From the NCBI GenBank assembly GCA_027490305.1, contig JAIXYI010000036.1:144989-208988 (forward strand): a stretch of 64,000 nt of DNA, given 5' to 3'. Origin of the DNA: Flavobacteriaceae bacterium (GTDB taxonomy: Bacteria > Bacteroidota > Bacteroidia > Flavobacteriales > Flavobacteriaceae). A model generated the notes under the pieces. That model was not told where the DNA came from, made no database searches, and worked only from the letters and a program-made list of their open reading frames with translations. Made by a program: the position numbers and the translations under genes. The first letter of the stretch is position 1. Each line of letters opens with the position of its first letter. Positions 27,605 through 41,163 of this stretch are shown piece after piece.

Positions 27605-28150
27605 ATGTCGCAACTTCGGAAACATCTTAAATTTACCTGGCGCCACAAATGGCGAGCGTTTGTCCAGCGTCGGCAGTTGGGTCAAATGGGGCGCGACGTG
27701 CATATTGACAAAGGTGTTGAATTTATGCGTTTTCCGTATAATATACAGGTGGGTGACGATGTAGTAGTGAAGGAAGGTGCCCGTATTTGTGCCTGTAATG
27801 AACGTGCCACGATTCGCATTGGAGCGCGCACTACGGTGGGTTACCATAATTTCTTTTTTGCGTCGGAGGCCATAGAGATTGGAGCAGACTGCCTCATTGC
27901 CCCCTTCGTATACATCGTTGATAGTAATCACTCTATTGCGCGTGGCGAGCTGATCAACCGACAACCCAACCAAACCGCACCGATCCGTGTTGGCAATGGG
28001 GTTTGGATTGCGAGTAATGTGACCATCCTGAAGGGCGTGACGATCGGCGACGGTGCTGTCATAGCAGCCAATTCAGTCGTAAATAAAGACATTCCACCAT
28101 TTGAGATATGGGGCGGGAGCCCTGCCAAAAAAATCAGCGAACGTGAATAA
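27605..28150 (+). CDS. Left-handed beta-helix acyltransferase
   Basis: Hexapeptide repeats IRVGNGVWIASNVTILKGVTIGDGAVIAANSVVNKDIPPFEIWGGSPAKKI. Confidence 0.88.
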   Translation: MSQLRKHLKFTWRHKWRAFVQRRQLGQMGRDVHIDKGVEFMRFPYNIQVGDDVVVKEGARICACNERATIRIGARTTVGYHNFFFASEAIEIGADCLIAPFVYIVDSNHSIARGELINRQPNQTAPIRVGNGVWIASNVTILKGVTIGDGAVIAANSVVNKDIPPFEIWGGSPAKKISERE

Positions 28151-28844
28151 ACCAACGGTTGGAGCCGTCATATTATCCCGTTTCTCTTCGAGCAGGTTGC
28201 CAGGAAAGGCCCTAATGGAAATTGATGGCAAACCTGTTTTGCTATATATCATCGAACGATTACAGAAGGTGTTGCCGCTTGACAGGATTGTGATAGCGAC
28301 TTCTGCCGAAACATCAGACGACCCGATTGCGGCCTTCTGCGAGCGTGAGCACATTGCCTGCCACAGGGGGTCGCTTGAACATGTGGCCGAGCGTTTCCTG
28401 GAAGCAGGCGAGGCGAAGGGATGGGACTACACAACCCGTATCAACGGTGATAACATATTCGTAGACACTGATGTGTTGCGAGACATGATAGCTATTGCCG
28501 AAACCGGGCAGTATGCATTTATTAGCAATGTAAAAGACCGTACTTTCCCAAAGGGGATGAGTATCGAGATTGTGCGTACGTCGGTATTCCGAAGCCTCAT
28601 GCCGACATTGTCGGCGTCGCGCGAGTACCAGGAACATGTGACACTTTATCTTTATGACCATGAAGACCAAGTGCAGCACTATTATTTTCGGAATACAACA
28701 TTACCAGAAGCTGCTGGTATCCAATTCGCGCTTGATACAAGTGAGGATTTTGATCGTACGAGCCGTATTATTGCAGCATTCAGACAGCCGCACACTGAAT
28801 ATAACCTGGCCCGGATTTATCCTATTTACCAACAGATAAGATGA
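28143..28844 (+). CDS. SpsF/NeuA-like cytidylyltransferase
   Basis: VGAVILSRFSSSRLPGKALMEIDGKPVLLYIIERLQ, IATSAETSDDPI, HRGSLEHVAERFLEA; GTG start overlapping the upstream stop. Confidence 0.8.
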   Translation: MNKPTVGAVILSRFSSSRLPGKALMEIDGKPVLLYIIERLQKVLPLDRIVIATSAETSDDPIAAFCEREHIACHRGSLEHVAERFLEAGEAKGWDYTTRINGDNIFVDTDVLRDMIAIAETGQYAFISNVKDRTFPKGMSIEIVRTSVFRSLMPTLSASREYQEHVTLYLYDHEDQVQHYYFRNTTLPEAAGIQFALDTSEDFDRTSRIIAAFRQPHTEYNLARIYPIYQQIR

Positions 28845-29890
28845 GTAACGCCAAGACCAGAAACGTCTTTGTATTGTCGACGGAGTACCATTTCCTCCTC
28901 GCGATGTCGATCATCGACTCCCATTTTGCCGATGTGCAATACGACAATGTGCTCGTGTTGAAGGGCCCCCGGCTCGCCAGTATAGATGACACCTCACTTC
29001 CGAACGGCATCAGTGCTATCCGCCTTCTTTTCGAAGATTCGCAGTTTAGGAAAAGACTGAAGGAAGAAGTCTTTGGTTCCCCTATCGGTAATCTTTTCGT
29101 GGTGCACACCTATCGCGCCTACGAAAGCTATGTTCTGTCGCTGGCTTCAGGCAAAACACGGATCCATCTGATGCAGGACGGATCGCTGTTCTACCATACG
29201 ATGGAAGTCAGCCTTTTCCTGAATCGCATACGCGAAACCTACATGATCTATAAAAATCTGTGGGATAAGGGAATATTGCTCAAAACCGTTCTCTATTATC
29301 CAAGACATATGCACAGGAGCCGGTTCATAAATGAACTTTGGATGACCGACCCTGAGCTTTTTGTAGACCCGAAAACCAAACTGAAGATCAACCAGGTGAA
29401 GCTATTCCCTTATCCAGAAAGTATTGAAAGATACGGACGGTGCTTTGATACGGCAAAAGGCGACTTCCGCGGTATCGAGGATTGCATGATTTATCTTGCC
29501 CCGATCATCCGTAACGAAGCCGACTTGCCGATTGAGATCGAACAGATACGGAAACTTAAGGAGAAGATAGGGAAGAAGAACCTTATCATAAAACTCCACC
29601 CGGGCGTGAAAGGTAAAGCACAGTTCAACCATCTGCAGGAAGCTTTTGGTGATGTGGTTCGCCAGGATTATATACCTGCCGAGCTCTATATTGCCAATTC
29701 CGTGCGCTCTTGCGTTGTCGGGTCGGCTTCTACAGCCTTGTTCTATAATAACCCATCTTGCCAGAATTTTGCCCTCAAGCGCTATTACCAGCGACTGGGG
29801 ATTTATGCGGCCTGGAAAAATGTGGCGCTTCCTGCCCATGTCCACCAAATCAATGAACTAGAGGATTTTGATACCATACAAATTCGATGA
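28841..29890 (+). CDS. Putative GT-B sialyltransferase/polysialyltransferase-like protein
   Basis: LIIKLHPGVKGK and SCVVGSASTALFY resemble the KLHP and Ser-rich motifs of bacterial GT-B sialyltransferases; sits between cytidylyltransferase and NeuB-like genes. Confidence 0.55.
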   Translation: MSNAKTRNVFVLSTEYHFLLAMSIIDSHFADVQYDNVLVLKGPRLASIDDTSLPNGISAIRLLFEDSQFRKRLKEEVFGSPIGNLFVVHTYRAYESYVLSLASGKTRIHLMQDGSLFYHTMEVSLFLNRIRETYMIYKNLWDKGILLKTVLYYPRHMHRSRFINELWMTDPELFVDPKTKLKINQVKLFPYPESIERYGRCFDTAKGDFRGIEDCMIYLAPIIRNEADLPIEIEQIRKLKEKIGKKNLIIKLHPGVKGKAQFNHLQEAFGDVVRQDYIPAELYIANSVRSCVVGSASTALFYNNPSCQNFALKRYYQRLGIYAAWKNVALPAHVHQINELEDFDTIQIR

Positions 29891-30912
29891 CCATGTCAAA
29901 CGCATATAAAGGAAAACACGGACCATTGTTGATCTGCGAGATCGGCGGAAACCATGAAGGAGACTTCGAATATGCCAAAAAACTGGCGCGTCTCGCCATC
30001 GAAACGGACGTAGATTACGTCAAGTTCCAGATATACACCGGAGACACGCTGGTTTCCTCAATGGAGAGCCCTGACAGGAATAAGCATTTCAAGAAGTTTG
30101 AGCTCTCACGCGAGCAGCACCTCTATCTTGCGGATATGGTAAAGGAGGCAGGTATACTCTACACCTCTTCCGTTTGGGATATCGATGCGATGCAGTGGCT
30201 GGACCCATACATTAGCTTGTATAAAATAGGCAGCGGCGACCTGAACGCGTATCCGGTGCTCCGAAAGACGGCAGAGAAAGGTAAGCCGATGATTATCTCT
30301 ACCGGTCTTGCCACCGAGCAGGAGGTACTTGACACGGTTGCTTTCCTGCAATCGGTGAATCCGGTATACCAGTCCAAGGATATGTTGGCAGTTTTGCAAT
30401 GTACGAGTATGTACCCAATTCCCGCTGCCGACGCCAATCTGAATGTGATGTCCCGCCTGCGCGAACTGACTTCGCTGACGATTGGCTATTCCGATCATAC
30501 GGAAGGCTCAAAGGCGCTTATGTATGCTGTTGCAATGGGTGCTGAAGTGCTTGAATTTCATTTTACAGATAGCCGCGAAGGTAAAGTCTTCCGTGATCAT
30601 AAAGTGTCGCTTACGCCTTCTGAAATACGGGAATTGATTGCTGAAATTGGACTTATCAGGGAACTCAAGGGAGATGCCATAAAAAAACCCGTACCGATCG
30701 AAATAGACAATGGACACGTTGCCTCTTTCCGGCGAGCTGTTTACCCGCTTCGTGATATTAAGGTCGGCGAAGTTCTCACGGAGGAAAATCTCACCGTCCT
30801 GCGGCCCAACCACGGGATAGATGCCCGCGATTACGATAAATTGATCGGTAAGAAAGTGGCCAGGGAGCTTCTCCGCCACGAAAAACTGGACTGGAGCGAT
30901 ATCTCATCATGA
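29887..30912 (+). CDS. NeuB-like nonulosonate (N-acetylneuraminate family) synthase
   Basis: LLICEIGGNHEGDFEYAKKLA, DYVKFQIY, YKIGSGDLNAYPVLR, IISTGLATEQEV, GYSDHTEG; C-terminal SAF domain. Confidence 0.9.
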   Translation: MTMSNAYKGKHGPLLICEIGGNHEGDFEYAKKLARLAIETDVDYVKFQIYTGDTLVSSMESPDRNKHFKKFELSREQHLYLADMVKEAGILYTSSVWDIDAMQWLDPYISLYKIGSGDLNAYPVLRKTAEKGKPMIISTGLATEQEVLDTVAFLQSVNPVYQSKDMLAVLQCTSMYPIPAADANLNVMSRLRELTSLTIGYSDHTEGSKALMYAVAMGAEVLEFHFTDSREGKVFRDHKVSLTPSEIRELIAEIGLIRELKGDAIKKPVPIEIDNGHVASFRRAVYPLRDIKVGEVLTEENLTVLRPNHGIDARDYDKLIGKKVARELLRHEKLDWSDISS

Positions 30913-32165
30913 CAAAAACGCTGACATTAGGGGATAAAGAAAGAAAACGGAAAAAAGGCCTGCTAGCCGTTTTCTTCGTTTGGCCTCTCTTGTCGGCTAT
31001 AATGGCATTCCGCGATTTCGGTAACCGCACTTCTCGCAAAACCATTATCGCTTTTTTTTCCTTCTTCGGATTTACCATGGGATTTGCCCGCGAAGGGATG
31101 GATGGTTATACGCATGCCCGAAAGTTCGAGGCCTTCATCAAGATGGACGCAGGACAGTTCAAGTTAATCATTATGAACTTCATCCTGCGCCGTAACAATG
31201 CGGAGGAGTTGGATATTTACACGACGATCATCAACTTTCTCGTTTCCAGATTTACACATTCCTATCACTGGGTATTCCTTCTGCATGCGCTTATCTTTTC
31301 CGTTTTTTCTGTGAAGTTTTTCGGGTTCGTGTATGACGAATTTGCAGGAAAGATGAACAAGAATTCCCGTATCTTTTTCATCTTGGCCTTTTTCATCATG
31401 CCCGTCACCATCGTACACGGTATCCGGTTTCCAGTGGCCGCCTGGATTTACGTTTTTGGCGTTTACAGATACCTGTCAACCGAAAAGAAAACCTACATCT
31501 GGTATTGCGCACTTGCCTGTTTCGTACACTTTAGTTTCGCGCTTGCCCTCGGGCTAATTCTCATTTATGTTGCGCTTGGAAACCGGAACTACATTTACCT
31601 TGGACTTATCGCGCTTTCGCTACTGGCGCCCAACCTAATGTATACCTACCTTTCGTCGTTTGATACATCTAATATTGGGGATAACCTCCAAGACAAACTC
31701 GAAGCCTATTCTAATAAAGATTACATCGTAAACCGAAATGAATCGCTGGAATCGCGTAACTGGTACGCCCGTCTGCGGATCCCGATCATGCAATACACAA
31801 TGATTGCAGTGGTGCTATTCATTGGTTTTTTTCGGAAGCATTACTACAATCAGGACAAGATCCAGCAGAACCTTTTCTCATTCATGTTACTGCTTCTCGC
31901 TTTCGTGAATTTCGGTTTTGCTTTCGACTCGCTCGGACGACGATTCCTGCTCATCTGGATTCTTCTCGCAGCGATCTATCTCTACCGTTTTTATCAACAG
32001 AACAATTTTGCTTATTTCAAGTCCTATACCGTGATTCTGGCTTTTCCGACGCTGCTTTGGATATTCGTCCAGACGCGTGTTGCACTTGACGTCGTCACCC
32101 CCATGTGGTTTATTGGAAATCCTGTCACTTCCCTGTTTATAGAAATGGATGTCTTTAGTAAATAA
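30909..32165 (+). CDS. EpsG/Wzy-like polysaccharide polymerase
   Basis: Polytopic, 418 aa, EpsG-like layout (GMDGYTHARKFE; FTHSYHWVFLLHALIFSVF); position between NeuB and GT genes. Confidence 0.75.
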   Translation: MTKTLTLGDKERKRKKGLLAVFFVWPLLSAIMAFRDFGNRTSRKTIIAFFSFFGFTMGFAREGMDGYTHARKFEAFIKMDAGQFKLIIMNFILRRNNAEELDIYTTIINFLVSRFTHSYHWVFLLHALIFSVFSVKFFGFVYDEFAGKMNKNSRIFFILAFFIMPVTIVHGIRFPVAAWIYVFGVYRYLSTEKKTYIWYCALACFVHFSFALALGLILIYVALGNRNYIYLGLIALSLLAPNLMYTYLSSFDTSNIGDNLQDKLEAYSNKDYIVNRNESLESRNWYARLRIPIMQYTMIAVVLFIGFFRKHYYNQDKIQQNLFSFMLLLLAFVNFGFAFDSLGRRFLLIWILLAAIYLYRFYQQNNFAYFKSYTVILAFPTLLWIFVQTRVALDVVTPMWFIGNPVTSLFIEMDVFSK

Positions 32166-32203: not shown

Positions 32204-33586
32204 ATGAAGTCTACTCCAACCATCAGCGTCTACATTACGAATTATAACTACGCAAAGTATATCGTCCATTCCGTCGAAAGCCTTCTGGCGCAGACCCTGC
32301 AGGATTTTGAGATTTTCATCATCGACGACGGTTCAACTGACAACAGCCGCGAGATCATAGAGCGTTATCGGGCGAACGAAAAGGTGACCATCATCTACCA
32401 GCAGAACAAAGGACTTAACGTCACCAACAATATCGCGATGAGGGCGGCCTCGGGAAAATACCTGATGCGTCTTGATGCAGATGATTTCCTCGAGCCGGAA
32501 GCGCTTGAGGTAATGGCAGGCATACTGGACTCTGATTCGGAACTCGGACTCGTCTTCCCCGATTATTATTATGTGGATGCCGACGGAAACCGTACGGGTG
32601 AGGAAAAGCGTCACGACTTTGACCATGAAGTATCGCTTTACGATCAGCCGGCCCACGGCGCCTGTACGATGATTCGCCTTGAATTTCTAAAAAACCTTGG
32701 TGGCTACAATGAGAGTTTTACTTGTCAGGATGGCTATGACCTGTGGATAAAGTTCATCACCCATCATAAAGTAACGAATGTAAGCCGGCCGCTTTTTTCC
32801 TACCGGCGTCACGGAAATAACCTGACGACAAACGAGCAACGTATCCTGGATACCCGTAAACGGATCAAGGACCTCCATATCGAAACGAGCGCGATGCGCC
32901 TCCCGCATACGTTGGCGGTGATCCCGGTGCGGAACACGTTTATAAAAGGTGTGAATTGGCCCTTGTTTGATAGGGACGGCGAAACGGTGCTCGAAGCCTG
33001 TATCCGCAAAGTGAAAGCTTCCAACCGCATCGCTGAGGTAGTGGTTACCACTTCCGACACCGAAATTCTGGATTTTCTGCGAGGTAAGGATTTATCTGGG
33101 GTAACCGTGATTGAGCGTCCGGAAGCCTTCGCAAAGGTCAACGAAACCCTGAACAGAACGTTCGATCATGTGTTGACGCAATTGGCCGGGCGCGGCGTCT
33201 TTCCAGAGGCCCTGATGTCTGTAGCAATCGAATATCCCTTCCTTACAACAGATATGGTGGATGATGCCGTTAACACCCTTTCGATATTTAAGGCAGATTC
33301 GCTATTGAGCGTACGTCCTGACAACAGGATGTATTACCAACACGTCGGGCATGGTATGGCGCCATTGCTGGATCAGGAAAAGTTTACAAAACTGGAGCGC
33401 GAAGCACTTTACAAAGGAGCCGGTGGTATCATGCTGTCTACCGTCGACAGTTTCCGGAAGCGCGGACGTATGATTGCCGGCAAGGTCGGTCATATCGTCG
33501 TTGACCAGACGCGCAGTTTTGGCATATTTGGAGAGTTCGACCTCGAAGTATATCGTGCCCTGTATCAATCTCATAAAAACGCCTGA
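32204..33586 (+). CDS. Fusion protein: N-terminal GT2 glycosyltransferase, C-terminal NeuA-like cytidylyltransferase domain
   Basis: aa 1-230 GT2 (SVYITNYNYAKYIVHSVESLLAQTLQDFEIFIIDDGSTDNS, RLDADDF); from 32909 TLAVIPVRNTFIKGVNWPLFDRDGETVLEACIRKVKASNRIAEVVVTTSDTEIL... Confidence 0.78.
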   Translation: MKSTPTISVYITNYNYAKYIVHSVESLLAQTLQDFEIFIIDDGSTDNSREIIERYRANEKVTIIYQQNKGLNVTNNIAMRAASGKYLMRLDADDFLEPEALEVMAGILDSDSELGLVFPDYYYVDADGNRTGEEKRHDFDHEVSLYDQPAHGACTMIRLEFLKNLGGYNESFTCQDGYDLWIKFITHHKVTNVSRPLFSYRRHGNNLTTNEQRILDTRKRIKDLHIETSAMRLPHTLAVIPVRNTFIKGVNWPLFDRDGETVLEACIRKVKASNRIAEVVVTTSDTEILDFLRGKDLSGVTVIERPEAFAKVNETLNRTFDHVLTQLAGRGVFPEALMSVAIEYPFLTTDMVDDAVNTLSIFKADSLLSVRPDNRMYYQHVGHGMAPLLDQEKFTKLEREALYKGAGGIMLSTVDSFRKRGRMIAGKVGHIVVDQTRSFGIFGEFDLEVYRALYQSHKNA

Positions 33587-33587
33587 C

Positions 33588-34718
33588 ATGAAATGGGGCG
33601 ACAGGATCAAAACCCATCTTTATAACGCTAAGGGATGGCATACCAGGCGTAAGATCGTTGTCTTCGAAAGTGACGACTGGGGATGTCTTCGTGTGCCACC
33701 AAAAGACGAGTTCGAACGTCTTGCAAAACACATTCCAAGCGTGCGTAAAAATGCCTTCAACCGCGTTGACGGACTTGAGACCCAGGACGACCTCGAACGG
33801 CTTTTCGATTTGCTTGGTTCGTTTCGCGATATACACGGAAACCCGGCGGTACTAACCGCTAACTTCGTAACGTGCAATCCAGATTATAAAGCCATAAAGG
33901 AAAGTGGTTTTGAGCATTTTATAGTGGAGGACTTTCCACTGGCCTACAGTCGTACGTCTGGCGCTGAAGGGAATAAGGAACTCGTGTCTAAAGGAATCGC
34001 CGATGGTTGTTTCTTCCCGCAGTTCCATGGCCGTGAACACGTGCAGGCGGAAGCCTGGCTACGTGACCTGTTCGAAGGGAACGAGCGTACACGTATAGGT
34101 TTCGATCACCATTTTTTTGCGTTCAACCGCAATGAAGCGGCTTCACGCAGTTACCTCTCGGCCTTCGACGCAGCTAACATCGATGAATTGGCGCCTGTGG
34201 CAGAACGTATTCGCGATGGGCTCGATCGTTTCGAACGCCTTTTCGGATTCCGTTCGCGCTCTGTTATAGCGCCACAAAACACCCTGCATTATGATCTTTT
34301 TCCCGTTCTAGCTGCAGCGGGCGTAGACATTATACAAGGCGCGAGGGTAAACAAACAGTCGGCTATTCACGTGGGTGATCCCAGAACCGTCAAACGGTTT
34401 ACGGGAAGGATTACGTCGGAAGGACAACTAGACATTGCGCGGAACGTCACTTTCGAACCTTCGGCTTCCGCGGCTGATTGGGTAGAAAAAGCCCTTGCAG
34501 AAATGGCAATTGCATTTGCCTGGGGCCGTCCTGCCGTAATTTGCACCCACCGCTATAATTTCATGGGCGGAATAGAGGAAGCTAACCGTGATCGAGGGTT
34601 ACGGTCAATGGCAGAGCTGCTAAAAGCCATCCAGAAGAAGTGGCCATCGGTGGAATTCATGACAACGGTCGGACTCGCCGATACCATAAGAAAAAAGCAC
34701 AATGTGCATGAAGGATAA
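33588..34718 (+). CDS. CE4/NodB-like polysaccharide deacetylase family protein, paralog A
   Basis: KIVVFESDDWG, FFPQFHGREHVQ (HxxxH), FEPS..DWVEKALAEMAIAFAWGRPAVICTHRYN; start reassigned to MKWGDRIKTHLYNAKGW. Confidence 0.65.
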   Translation: MKWGDRIKTHLYNAKGWHTRRKIVVFESDDWGCLRVPPKDEFERLAKHIPSVRKNAFNRVDGLETQDDLERLFDLLGSFRDIHGNPAVLTANFVTCNPDYKAIKESGFEHFIVEDFPLAYSRTSGAEGNKELVSKGIADGCFFPQFHGREHVQAEAWLRDLFEGNERTRIGFDHHFFAFNRNEAASRSYLSAFDAANIDELAPVAERIRDGLDRFERLFGFRSRSVIAPQNTLHYDLFPVLAAAGVDIIQGARVNKQSAIHVGDPRTVKRFTGRITSEGQLDIARNVTFEPSASAADWVEKALAEMAIAFAWGRPAVICTHRYNFMGGIEEANRDRGLRSMAELLKAIQKKWPSVEFMTTVGLADTIRKKHNVHEG

Positions 34719-40044: not shown

Positions 40045-41163
40045 ATGATAGGAAAGATACGCCAGAAAATTTCAAGCAATCTCAAGAACGCCCGGGGATG
40101 GCGCTCCTCTCGCCGTATCGTTGTTTTTTCCGTAGATGATTATGGCAACGTCAAAGTCGACTCAAAGGAAGCCTTGGCCGCTATGGAAGCCGAGGGCGTT
40201 CGTCCACTTTCCCATTTCGACCTTTACGATACACTTGAAACGCCGGATGACCTCCAGGCGCTGTTCGAGATACTTACCAGCGTTACCGATTCAAAAGGGC
40301 GTCATGCTGCCTTTACCGCTTTTTCGCTGCCTGCCAATATCGATTTTGAAAGGATGGCGGCGGAGGATTATGCGGAATACCGATATGAACTTTTGCCGGA
40401 AACTTTTGCCAAACGGAAAGGCTATGAAGGTACTTGGAAACTTTGGCAGGAAGGGATGGACAAACGGATCTTTGTGCCGCAGTTTCACGGTCGGGAACAT
40501 CTAAACGTGAAAATGCTCAATGATGCCTTACAGCGCCGTGACCCCGCTACGCTTACGGCGTTGAAGAACCGTTCTTATACGGGTATTTCTGTCAAAACGT
40601 ATCCGTCTTACACCGCAGCTTTCGACTTTTGGGACTTCTCCGAAAATGAGGCCTTCCATGACATTATCGTAGACGGGCTCAACGCTTTTGAGAAAGTCTT
40701 TGGCCGACGTGCGCTGAACTTCAACCCTCCTGGCGGGCGCGAAAGCAGTGTGCTCCATACGACCCTTAAGGCCAATGGTATCCTGTTCATAGATACACCG
40801 TCAGACAAGCGTGAGCACGAAGGCGACGGAAAGTTCCGTCGAGTGGTGAATTATATGGGCAAGAAGAATGCAGAAGGGCAGACCTACCTCATCCGAAATG
40901 CCGTTTTCGAACCCAACGACAAAAAGCCTTTTGACTGGGTTGATAAAACACTTGGCGAGATAGAGATGGCGTTTCGGTGGAAGAAACCGGCTATTATAAG
41001 CTCCCATCGCGTGAATTACTGTGGCCATATTGACGAGGAACACCGCCGGAACGGACTTGCCTCGCTCAAGCGGCTCCTTGACGAAATCACGCGTCGTTGG
41101 CCTGATGTTGAATTCATGACGGCCGATGAACTGGGCCTCTTAATGTCTGGCAGTAATGTATAA
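40045..41163 (+). CDS. CE4/NodB-like polysaccharide deacetylase family protein, paralog B
   Basis: RIVVFSVDDYGNV, FVPQFHGREHLN (HxxxH), FEPND..DWVDKTLGEIEMAFRWKKPAIISSHRVN; colinear with paralog A at 33588. Confidence 0.65.
   Translation: MIGKIRQKISSNLKNARGWRSSRRIVVFSVDDYGNVKVDSKEALAAMEAEGVRPLSHFDLYDTLETPDDLQALFEILTSVTDSKGRHAAFTAFSLPANIDFERMAAEDYAEYRYELLPETFAKRKGYEGTWKLWQEGMDKRIFVPQFHGREHLNVKMLNDALQRRDPATLTALKNRSYTGISVKTYPSYTAAFDFWDFSENEAFHDIIVDGLNAFEKVFGRRALNFNPPGGRESSVLHTTLKANGILFIDTPSDKREHEGDGKFRRVVNYMGKKNAEGQTYLIRNAVFEPNDKKPFDWVDKTLGEIEMAFRWKKPAIISSHRVNYCGHIDEEHRRNGLASLKRLLDEITRRWPDVEFMTADELGLLMSGSNV

Follow-up and report, generated by a model that had tools for sequence, protein, structure and literature searches.

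The window analysed here, i.e., the whole stretch of 64,000 nucleotides from a Flavobacteriaceae contig, contains a gene cassette for a nonulosonate (nonulosonic acid, a sialic-acid-like sugar; hereafter NulO), in which a fusion protein of 460 amino acids, named GT2X, is encoded on the forward strand (Table 1). In accordance with the original prediction, a single ORF joins a full GT2 glycosyltransferase domain to a second domain. The N-terminal half of GT2X matches PF00535 (E 1e-30 over aa 8-139; 107.3 bits versus a cut-off of 23.3), and its PDB relatives include chondroitin synthase (2.6e-41) and 6p61 (5.7e-32), a stand-alone Leptospira GT2 to which the alignment reaches aa 225. Invariant positions in this domain amount to 106 of 222 in ten sequences, and the DXD (RLDADD) and catalytic-base QDG motifs are invariant in seven divergent members of the family, including the protein of locus L076. 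The GT2 half of GT2X thus appears to be a complete, active-looking glycosyltransferase domain. An assembly or frameshift artefact as the origin of the fusion is ruled out by its recurrence across 12 distinct genomes.

Table 1. Genes of the cassette, and domains and segments of GT2X, with positions in the window.
Feature	Position	Strand	Remarks
Hexapeptide-repeat acetyltransferase	27605..28150	+	First gene of the cassette; PF00132, 6e-16; upstream in every locus
SpsF-type cytidylyltransferase	28101..28844	+	PF02348, 7e-22; true start probably near 28150
Alpha-2,8-polysialyltransferase-like protein	28841..29890	+	Candidate separate NulO transferase; PF07388, 2.3e-5, above cut-off
NeuB-family NulO synthase with SAF domain	29887..30912	+	PF03102, 2.8e-61
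EpsG-like polysaccharide polymerase	30909..32165	+	PF14897, 2e-12
GT2X, fusion of GT2 and pseudo-CMP-NulO-synthetase	32204..33586	+	ATG start; 460 aa
GT2 catalytic domain, aa 5-226	32216..32881	+	PF00535; invariant IIDDGS, RLDADD and C-QDGY motifs
CMP-NulO-synthetase-fold domain, aa 233-460	32900..33583	+	hhalign, AF2, Foldseek
Degenerate P-loop IPVRNTFIKGVNWP, aa 240-253	32921..32962	+	Arg retained; Gly, Ser, both Lys and Asn lost
Dimerisation-arm-equivalent segment, aa 371-405 (RPDNRMYYQH to EREALYKG)	33314..33418	+	Highest conservation within the domain
Position of the Mg-binding Asp-x-Asp, aa 440-442	33521..33529	+	GIF; both Asp absent

Genuine as it is, the GT2X fusion is rare. A scan of 85,462 species genomes retrieved ten full-length relatives with 53-71% identity, nine from Bacteroidota and one (L011) from a Clostridia MAG; two of these loci (L005 and L006) belong to near-identical MAGs and are counted once. 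Genome searches added two divergent relatives, in G594 (L060/L073) and G186 (L076), giving a total of 12 distinct genomes including that of the window, 11 of Bacteroidota and one Clostridia MAG. Among 396 Bacteroidota genomes, GT2X occurs in the window genome and G186 only, and among 250 genomes of the window's family it occurs in two. Beyond the seeds, searches for GT2X in the order of L008 (241 genomes), the class of G186 (199 genomes), and the order (199 genomes) and phylum (249 genomes) of the Clostridia MAG found no further copy, and a plasmid search gave no match. Stand-alone copies of the C-terminal domain were not seen among the 396 Bacteroidota, in which the remaining matches that were examined belong to ordinary NeuA proteins or NeuA-HAD fusions, scoring 58 bits or less. 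A description of the GT2X architecture was not found in the open-access literature searched. The view that this is not a standard architecture agrees with its rarity, although a glycosyltransferase and a NeuA in one ORF are known from Campylobacter jejuni.

The kinship of the C-terminal domain of GT2X becomes evident only beyond single-sequence searches, which see a weak signal: the domain scores 13.9 bits against CTP_transf_3 (PF02348; cut-off 22.6) and 21.8 bits against the NCBIfam PseF family (cut-off 205.7). A search of PDB sequences with the single domain, or with a profile of ten copies of it (alignment A1), returned nothing useful. Profile-profile comparison and structure prediction settle the matter. 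Aligned by hhalign to 11 CMP-NulO synthetases from related genomes (alignment A3), A1 gives a probability of 99.4% (E 5e-22, 219 columns), and genome searches with the C-terminal domain alignment match stand-alone NeuA proteins with E-values down to 1.7e-15. In the full-length AF2 model, the GT2 part is of poor quality owing to the shallow alignment, and the structural conclusion rests on a model of the separate C-terminal domain (pLDDT 81.6; single-chain pTM 0.81). With this model, the best 17 Foldseek matches in the PDB are all CMP-NulO synthetases (TMq up to 0.78), headed by the V. cholerae CMP-NeuAc synthetase (E 1.8e-15, TMq 0.78) after which come the Neisseria enzyme, a CMP-Kdn synthetase, the CMP-Pse synthetase of Aeromonas and murine CMAS. 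On these profile and model comparisons, the homology of aa 233-460 to CMP-NulO synthetases (NeuA/PseF) can be regarded as settled. The layout resembling that of CMP-sialate synthetases, which the original prediction had read from the sequence, is thereby confirmed, and the cytidylyltransferase kinship stands after the structure prediction that had been suggested as a check.

Homology does not imply retention of the activity. In true synthetases, the Gly, both Lys and the Asn of the P-loop hold the phosphates and ribose of CTP. In the 11 aligned GT2X sequences, P-loop residues Lys16, Lys21 and Asn22, as well as Gln104 and the Mg-binding Asp211 (Neisseria/Vibrio numbering), are lost without exception. 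The first Arg of the P-loop pattern R-x-G-S-K-x4-K-N is kept, while the Gly, both Lys and the Asn are lost in 11/11 and the Ser is retained in one sequence. In the numbering of L045, NeuA residues G12, K14 and K19 are replaced by T/N, I/M/gap and W/L/I, and N20, Q106 and D215 by P/L/V/A, A/S and F/Q/W/N/E, respectively, so that the Mg-binding Asp position is variable among the 11, with no other conserved residue substituted for it. Other synthetase features are kept, namely the equivalent of Arg12, the IP-x-R, Arg-Pro and Asp-x3-Ser-Val motifs, D365, Y403 and G407. The importance of the lost residues is known from mutants of true synthetases: D209A abolishes activity, D211A costs 15,000-fold, changes of Gln104 strongly lower activity (PMC2901514), and K21A abolishes it (PMC6580227). 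Because residues of the CTP/Mg2+ site that are essential in true enzymes are missing in 11/11 sequences, it is almost certain that the C-terminal domain does not function as a CMP-NulO synthetase. The alteration of the activation loop that had been pointed out in the window protein is therefore correct and family-wide, and the alternative offered with it, a non-catalytic domain, is supported by this pattern of losses. The domain might still be a working nucleotidyltransferase of changed chemistry or substrate, which would make GT2X a bifunctional, channelling enzyme. Conservation of the domain in 12 genomes, retention of the Arg12 equivalent and the existence in C. jejuni of a glycosyltransferase and NeuA in one ORF (PMC7248181) are in line with this, but the absence of the Mg-binding Asp and P-loop Lys in 11/11, the variability of the Asp position and the constant presence of a separate intact SpsF make it highly improbable. 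The initial proposal that activating and transferring enzymes on one chain would channel a CMP-sugar is not sustained, since the CTP/Mg2+ residues are gone and an intact SpsF is nearby everywhere.

The fate of the dimerisation arm is the opposite of that of the nucleotide site. In true synthetases, this arm reaches into the active site of the partner subunit and carries the catalytic Arg that contacts the sialate carboxylate. Conservation of the segment is inverted in GT2X: 18 of its 35 positions are invariant (mean 0.87), versus 2 of 41 (mean 0.48) in the 11 true synthetases of A3, and the arm has been described as the least conserved region of such enzymes (PMC6580227). The catalytic Arg (165/169) aligns to K396, which is Lys in ten sequences and Arg in one. 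In L076, the most divergent member, K396 is not evident, but His380, Leu397-Glu398-Arg399-Glu400, Tyr403 and Gly407 are still found. Over the complete C-terminal domain, 36 positions are invariant in ten sequences, one of them from another phylum, and all ten share an identical ten-residue run, FTKLEREALY (aa 394-403). Between distinct species, synonymous sites of the domain are saturated whereas pN is 0.19-0.38 (some pS values exceed 1, a counting artefact at saturation, and just the contrast between pS and pN is used). These invariant positions and this contrast indicate that the domain is not decaying. A functionless, decaying leftover of an old fusion would account for the loss of catalytic residues, but against this degree of constraint such an origin is extremely unlikely. 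Rather, the domain seems to have lost the nucleotide site while retaining and re-specialising the sugar/dimer side. The geometry of the arm is unproven, because the AF2 model is ill-defined precisely there (aa 147-171 of the domain, pLDDT < 50), and the molecule bound by the arm may not be a NulO, since the equivalent of the sialate-contacting Gln104 is also lost.

In every locus examined, genes for a hexapeptide acetyltransferase, an SpsF-type cytidylyltransferase and NeuB precede GT2X, and the gene or genes just before it vary, encoding a second hexapeptide protein, a methyltransferase-like protein or EpsG. The SpsF motifs R-x-x-S-x-R-L-P-G-K, RINGDN and DT are intact and invariant in 11 sequences, and the PDB relatives of the protein are 6oew (an SpsF-type structure, 2.7e-44) and otherwise all KdsB. 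The window genome (G000, 99.85% complete) has KdsB and SpsF as its only PF02348 members and the NeuB of the cassette as its single NeuB, which makes SpsF the natural CMP-NulO synthetase; it is more probably SpsF, and not GT2X, that makes CMP-NulO. That SpsF replaces a missing NeuA has been proposed earlier for the NulO cluster of Vibrio B9-25K2 (PMC7371886). In G186, SpsF (aa 1-214) and NeuB (aa 234-561) are fused in a 571-aa ORF (L076:10268-11983, reverse strand) before the divergent GT2X, which ties both proteins to one pathway. The usual supply of Neu5Ac and legionaminate seems to be absent from the window genome, as neither Epimerase_2 (PF02350, the UDP-GlcNAc 2-epimerase family) nor a PseB above cut-off is found in it. 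A second cassette just downstream in L004 (L004:7823-10689) encodes a 513-aa aldolase-like protein, an intact-looking NeuA-type cytidylyltransferase and a HAD phosphatase-like protein.

The fixed gene order and the SpsF-NeuB fusion of L076, together with the fact that the arm equivalent shows the strongest conservation within the domain, could also mean that the C-terminal domain is a regulatory or assembly partner. It would then dimerise either with SpsF, to which it is distantly related, or with another copy of itself, and would keep NeuB, SpsF and the glycosyltransferase in one complex. This is unlikely: SpsF belongs to a different branch (KdsB relatives), so that a domain-swapped heterodimer with it is not expected, and conservation of the polar residues His380, Glu398, Arg399 and Glu400 suggests a role in ligand binding besides assembly.

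A related question is which protein transfers the NulO. Candidate separate NulO/Kdo-type transferases are present near most cassettes: a polysialyltransferase-like protein in the window, L005, L006 and L073, Capsule_synth (PF05159) in L004, L007 and L076, and Maf or MptE-like proteins in L011 and L009, the nearby PF05159 and MptE-like proteins being no more than candidates for NulO transfer. In other loci (e.g., L003 and L008), no Pfam-recognised NulO transferase lies within 5 kb. The main alternative to the reading preferred below is GT2X itself as the NulO transferase, a sialyltransferase-like enzyme of GT2 type whose pseudo-synthetase domain would receive the donor, capturing the CMP-NulO made by SpsF and handing it to the GT2 site. 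Loci such as these two, the strict association of GT2X with SpsF and NeuB across all loci, and the descent of the domain from a protein whose product is CMP-NulO speak for this. However, the loss of the Lys16, Lys21 and Asn22 contacts to the CTP phosphates and ribose renders CMP binding doubtful, most loci have separate candidate transferases, and no GT2 enzyme is known as an established user of CMP-NulO, so that this role is possible but doubtful. Two other features of these neighbourhoods can be recorded. The window contains two paralogous ORFs (33583-34718 and 40045-41163) with the motif RKIVVF-S-DD-G and no Pfam match, the first of them also without NCBIfam match, and homologues of these ORFs occur downstream of GT2X in L005, L006 and L010. 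In the Clostridia MAG (L011:246-10723), the GT2X cassette is flanked by a Maf-family flagellin glycosyltransferase on one side and a FliD-like gene on the other, a setting that points to flagellin glycosylation in that organism.

In the reading preferred here, for which the chances seem evenly balanced, GT2X is a GT2 enzyme carrying a pseudo-CMP-NulO-synthetase domain that binds a NulO or positions it for the GT2 domain, with SpsF as the activating enzyme. For the reaction catalysed, including the donor and acceptor of the GT2 domain, we infer the following course. NeuB would make the NulO, which SpsF would activate with CTP. GT2X would dimerise, probably via the arms of its pseudo-synthetase domains, and its C-terminal domain would bind a NulO residue, thereby placing the GT2 domain. 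The latter would attach a sugar to an acceptor that contains NulO or, with lower probability, take up CMP-NulO. A CMP-sialate-synthetase fold would in this way have turned into a sugar-binding receptor that steers a GT2. In its strongest form, which must be considered tentative and rather doubtful, the GT2 domain would use captured CMP-NulO and be the first GT2 NulO transferase; the cassette would then be a minimal one that obtains its NulO precursor by a way other than the usual 2-epimerase route.

If the preferred reading is correct, GT2X would exemplify how, in nature, an activating enzyme has become a binding domain that no longer catalyses and is attached to a glycosyltransferase. It would also mark an uncharacterised NulO cassette (acetyltransferase-SpsF-NeuB-X-GT2X) distributed over Bacteroidota and present in a flagellar locus of Clostridia. 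GT2X-like proteins could be misannotated as CMP-NulO synthetases, a job for which the residue pattern favours SpsF. As a defined system, the GT2X cassette would also lend itself to studies of the extension of NulO-containing surface glycans.

Among known systems, the CMP-NulO synthetases (NeuA/CMAS/PseF; PDB 6ifd, 1eyr, 9t4z and 9ftc) share with the C-terminal domain of GT2X the fold across the domain and the order of elements, including the arm. Unlike in these enzymes, the P-loop Lys, Ser and Asn, Gln104 and the Mg-binding Asp are lost in the GT2X domain, its arm is frozen instead of variable, and it sits behind a GT2 domain and scores below the Pfam and NCBIfam cut-offs. By profile and predicted structure, GT2X has the CMP-NulO synthetase fold, yet it fails the tests that define this enzyme (P-loop, Mg-binding Asp and profile cut-offs). 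With the GT2 family (PF00535), including the GT2 domains of the K4CP chondroitin polymerase and Leptospira 6p61, GT2X has in common a complete GT2 domain with DXD and QD motifs, and it differs from K4CP and 6p61 in its additional C-terminal synthetase-fold domain. The NulO cluster of Vibrio B9-25K2 is alike in containing an SpsF domain, which is there fused to an aldo-keto reductase, and no GT2X has been described in it. A parallel in architecture is a C. jejuni fusion whose NeuA serves its pathway as the working CMP-Neu5Ac synthetase. In this protein, CgtA/NeuA1 (cgtA/neuA1, orf5/10), a glycosyltransferase and NeuA are encoded in one ORF within a NeuB-bearing sialic-acid locus; the glycosyltransferase half transfers GalNAc, and the sialyltransferase is a protein of its own, Cst (PMC7248181, PMC3397941). 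This precedent indicates that a fusion alone does not show that the glycosyltransferase uses the CMP-sugar. GT2X differs from CgtA/NeuA1 in that its synthetase half, judged by sequence, is devoid of the catalytic residues and a separate protein, SpsF, is present.
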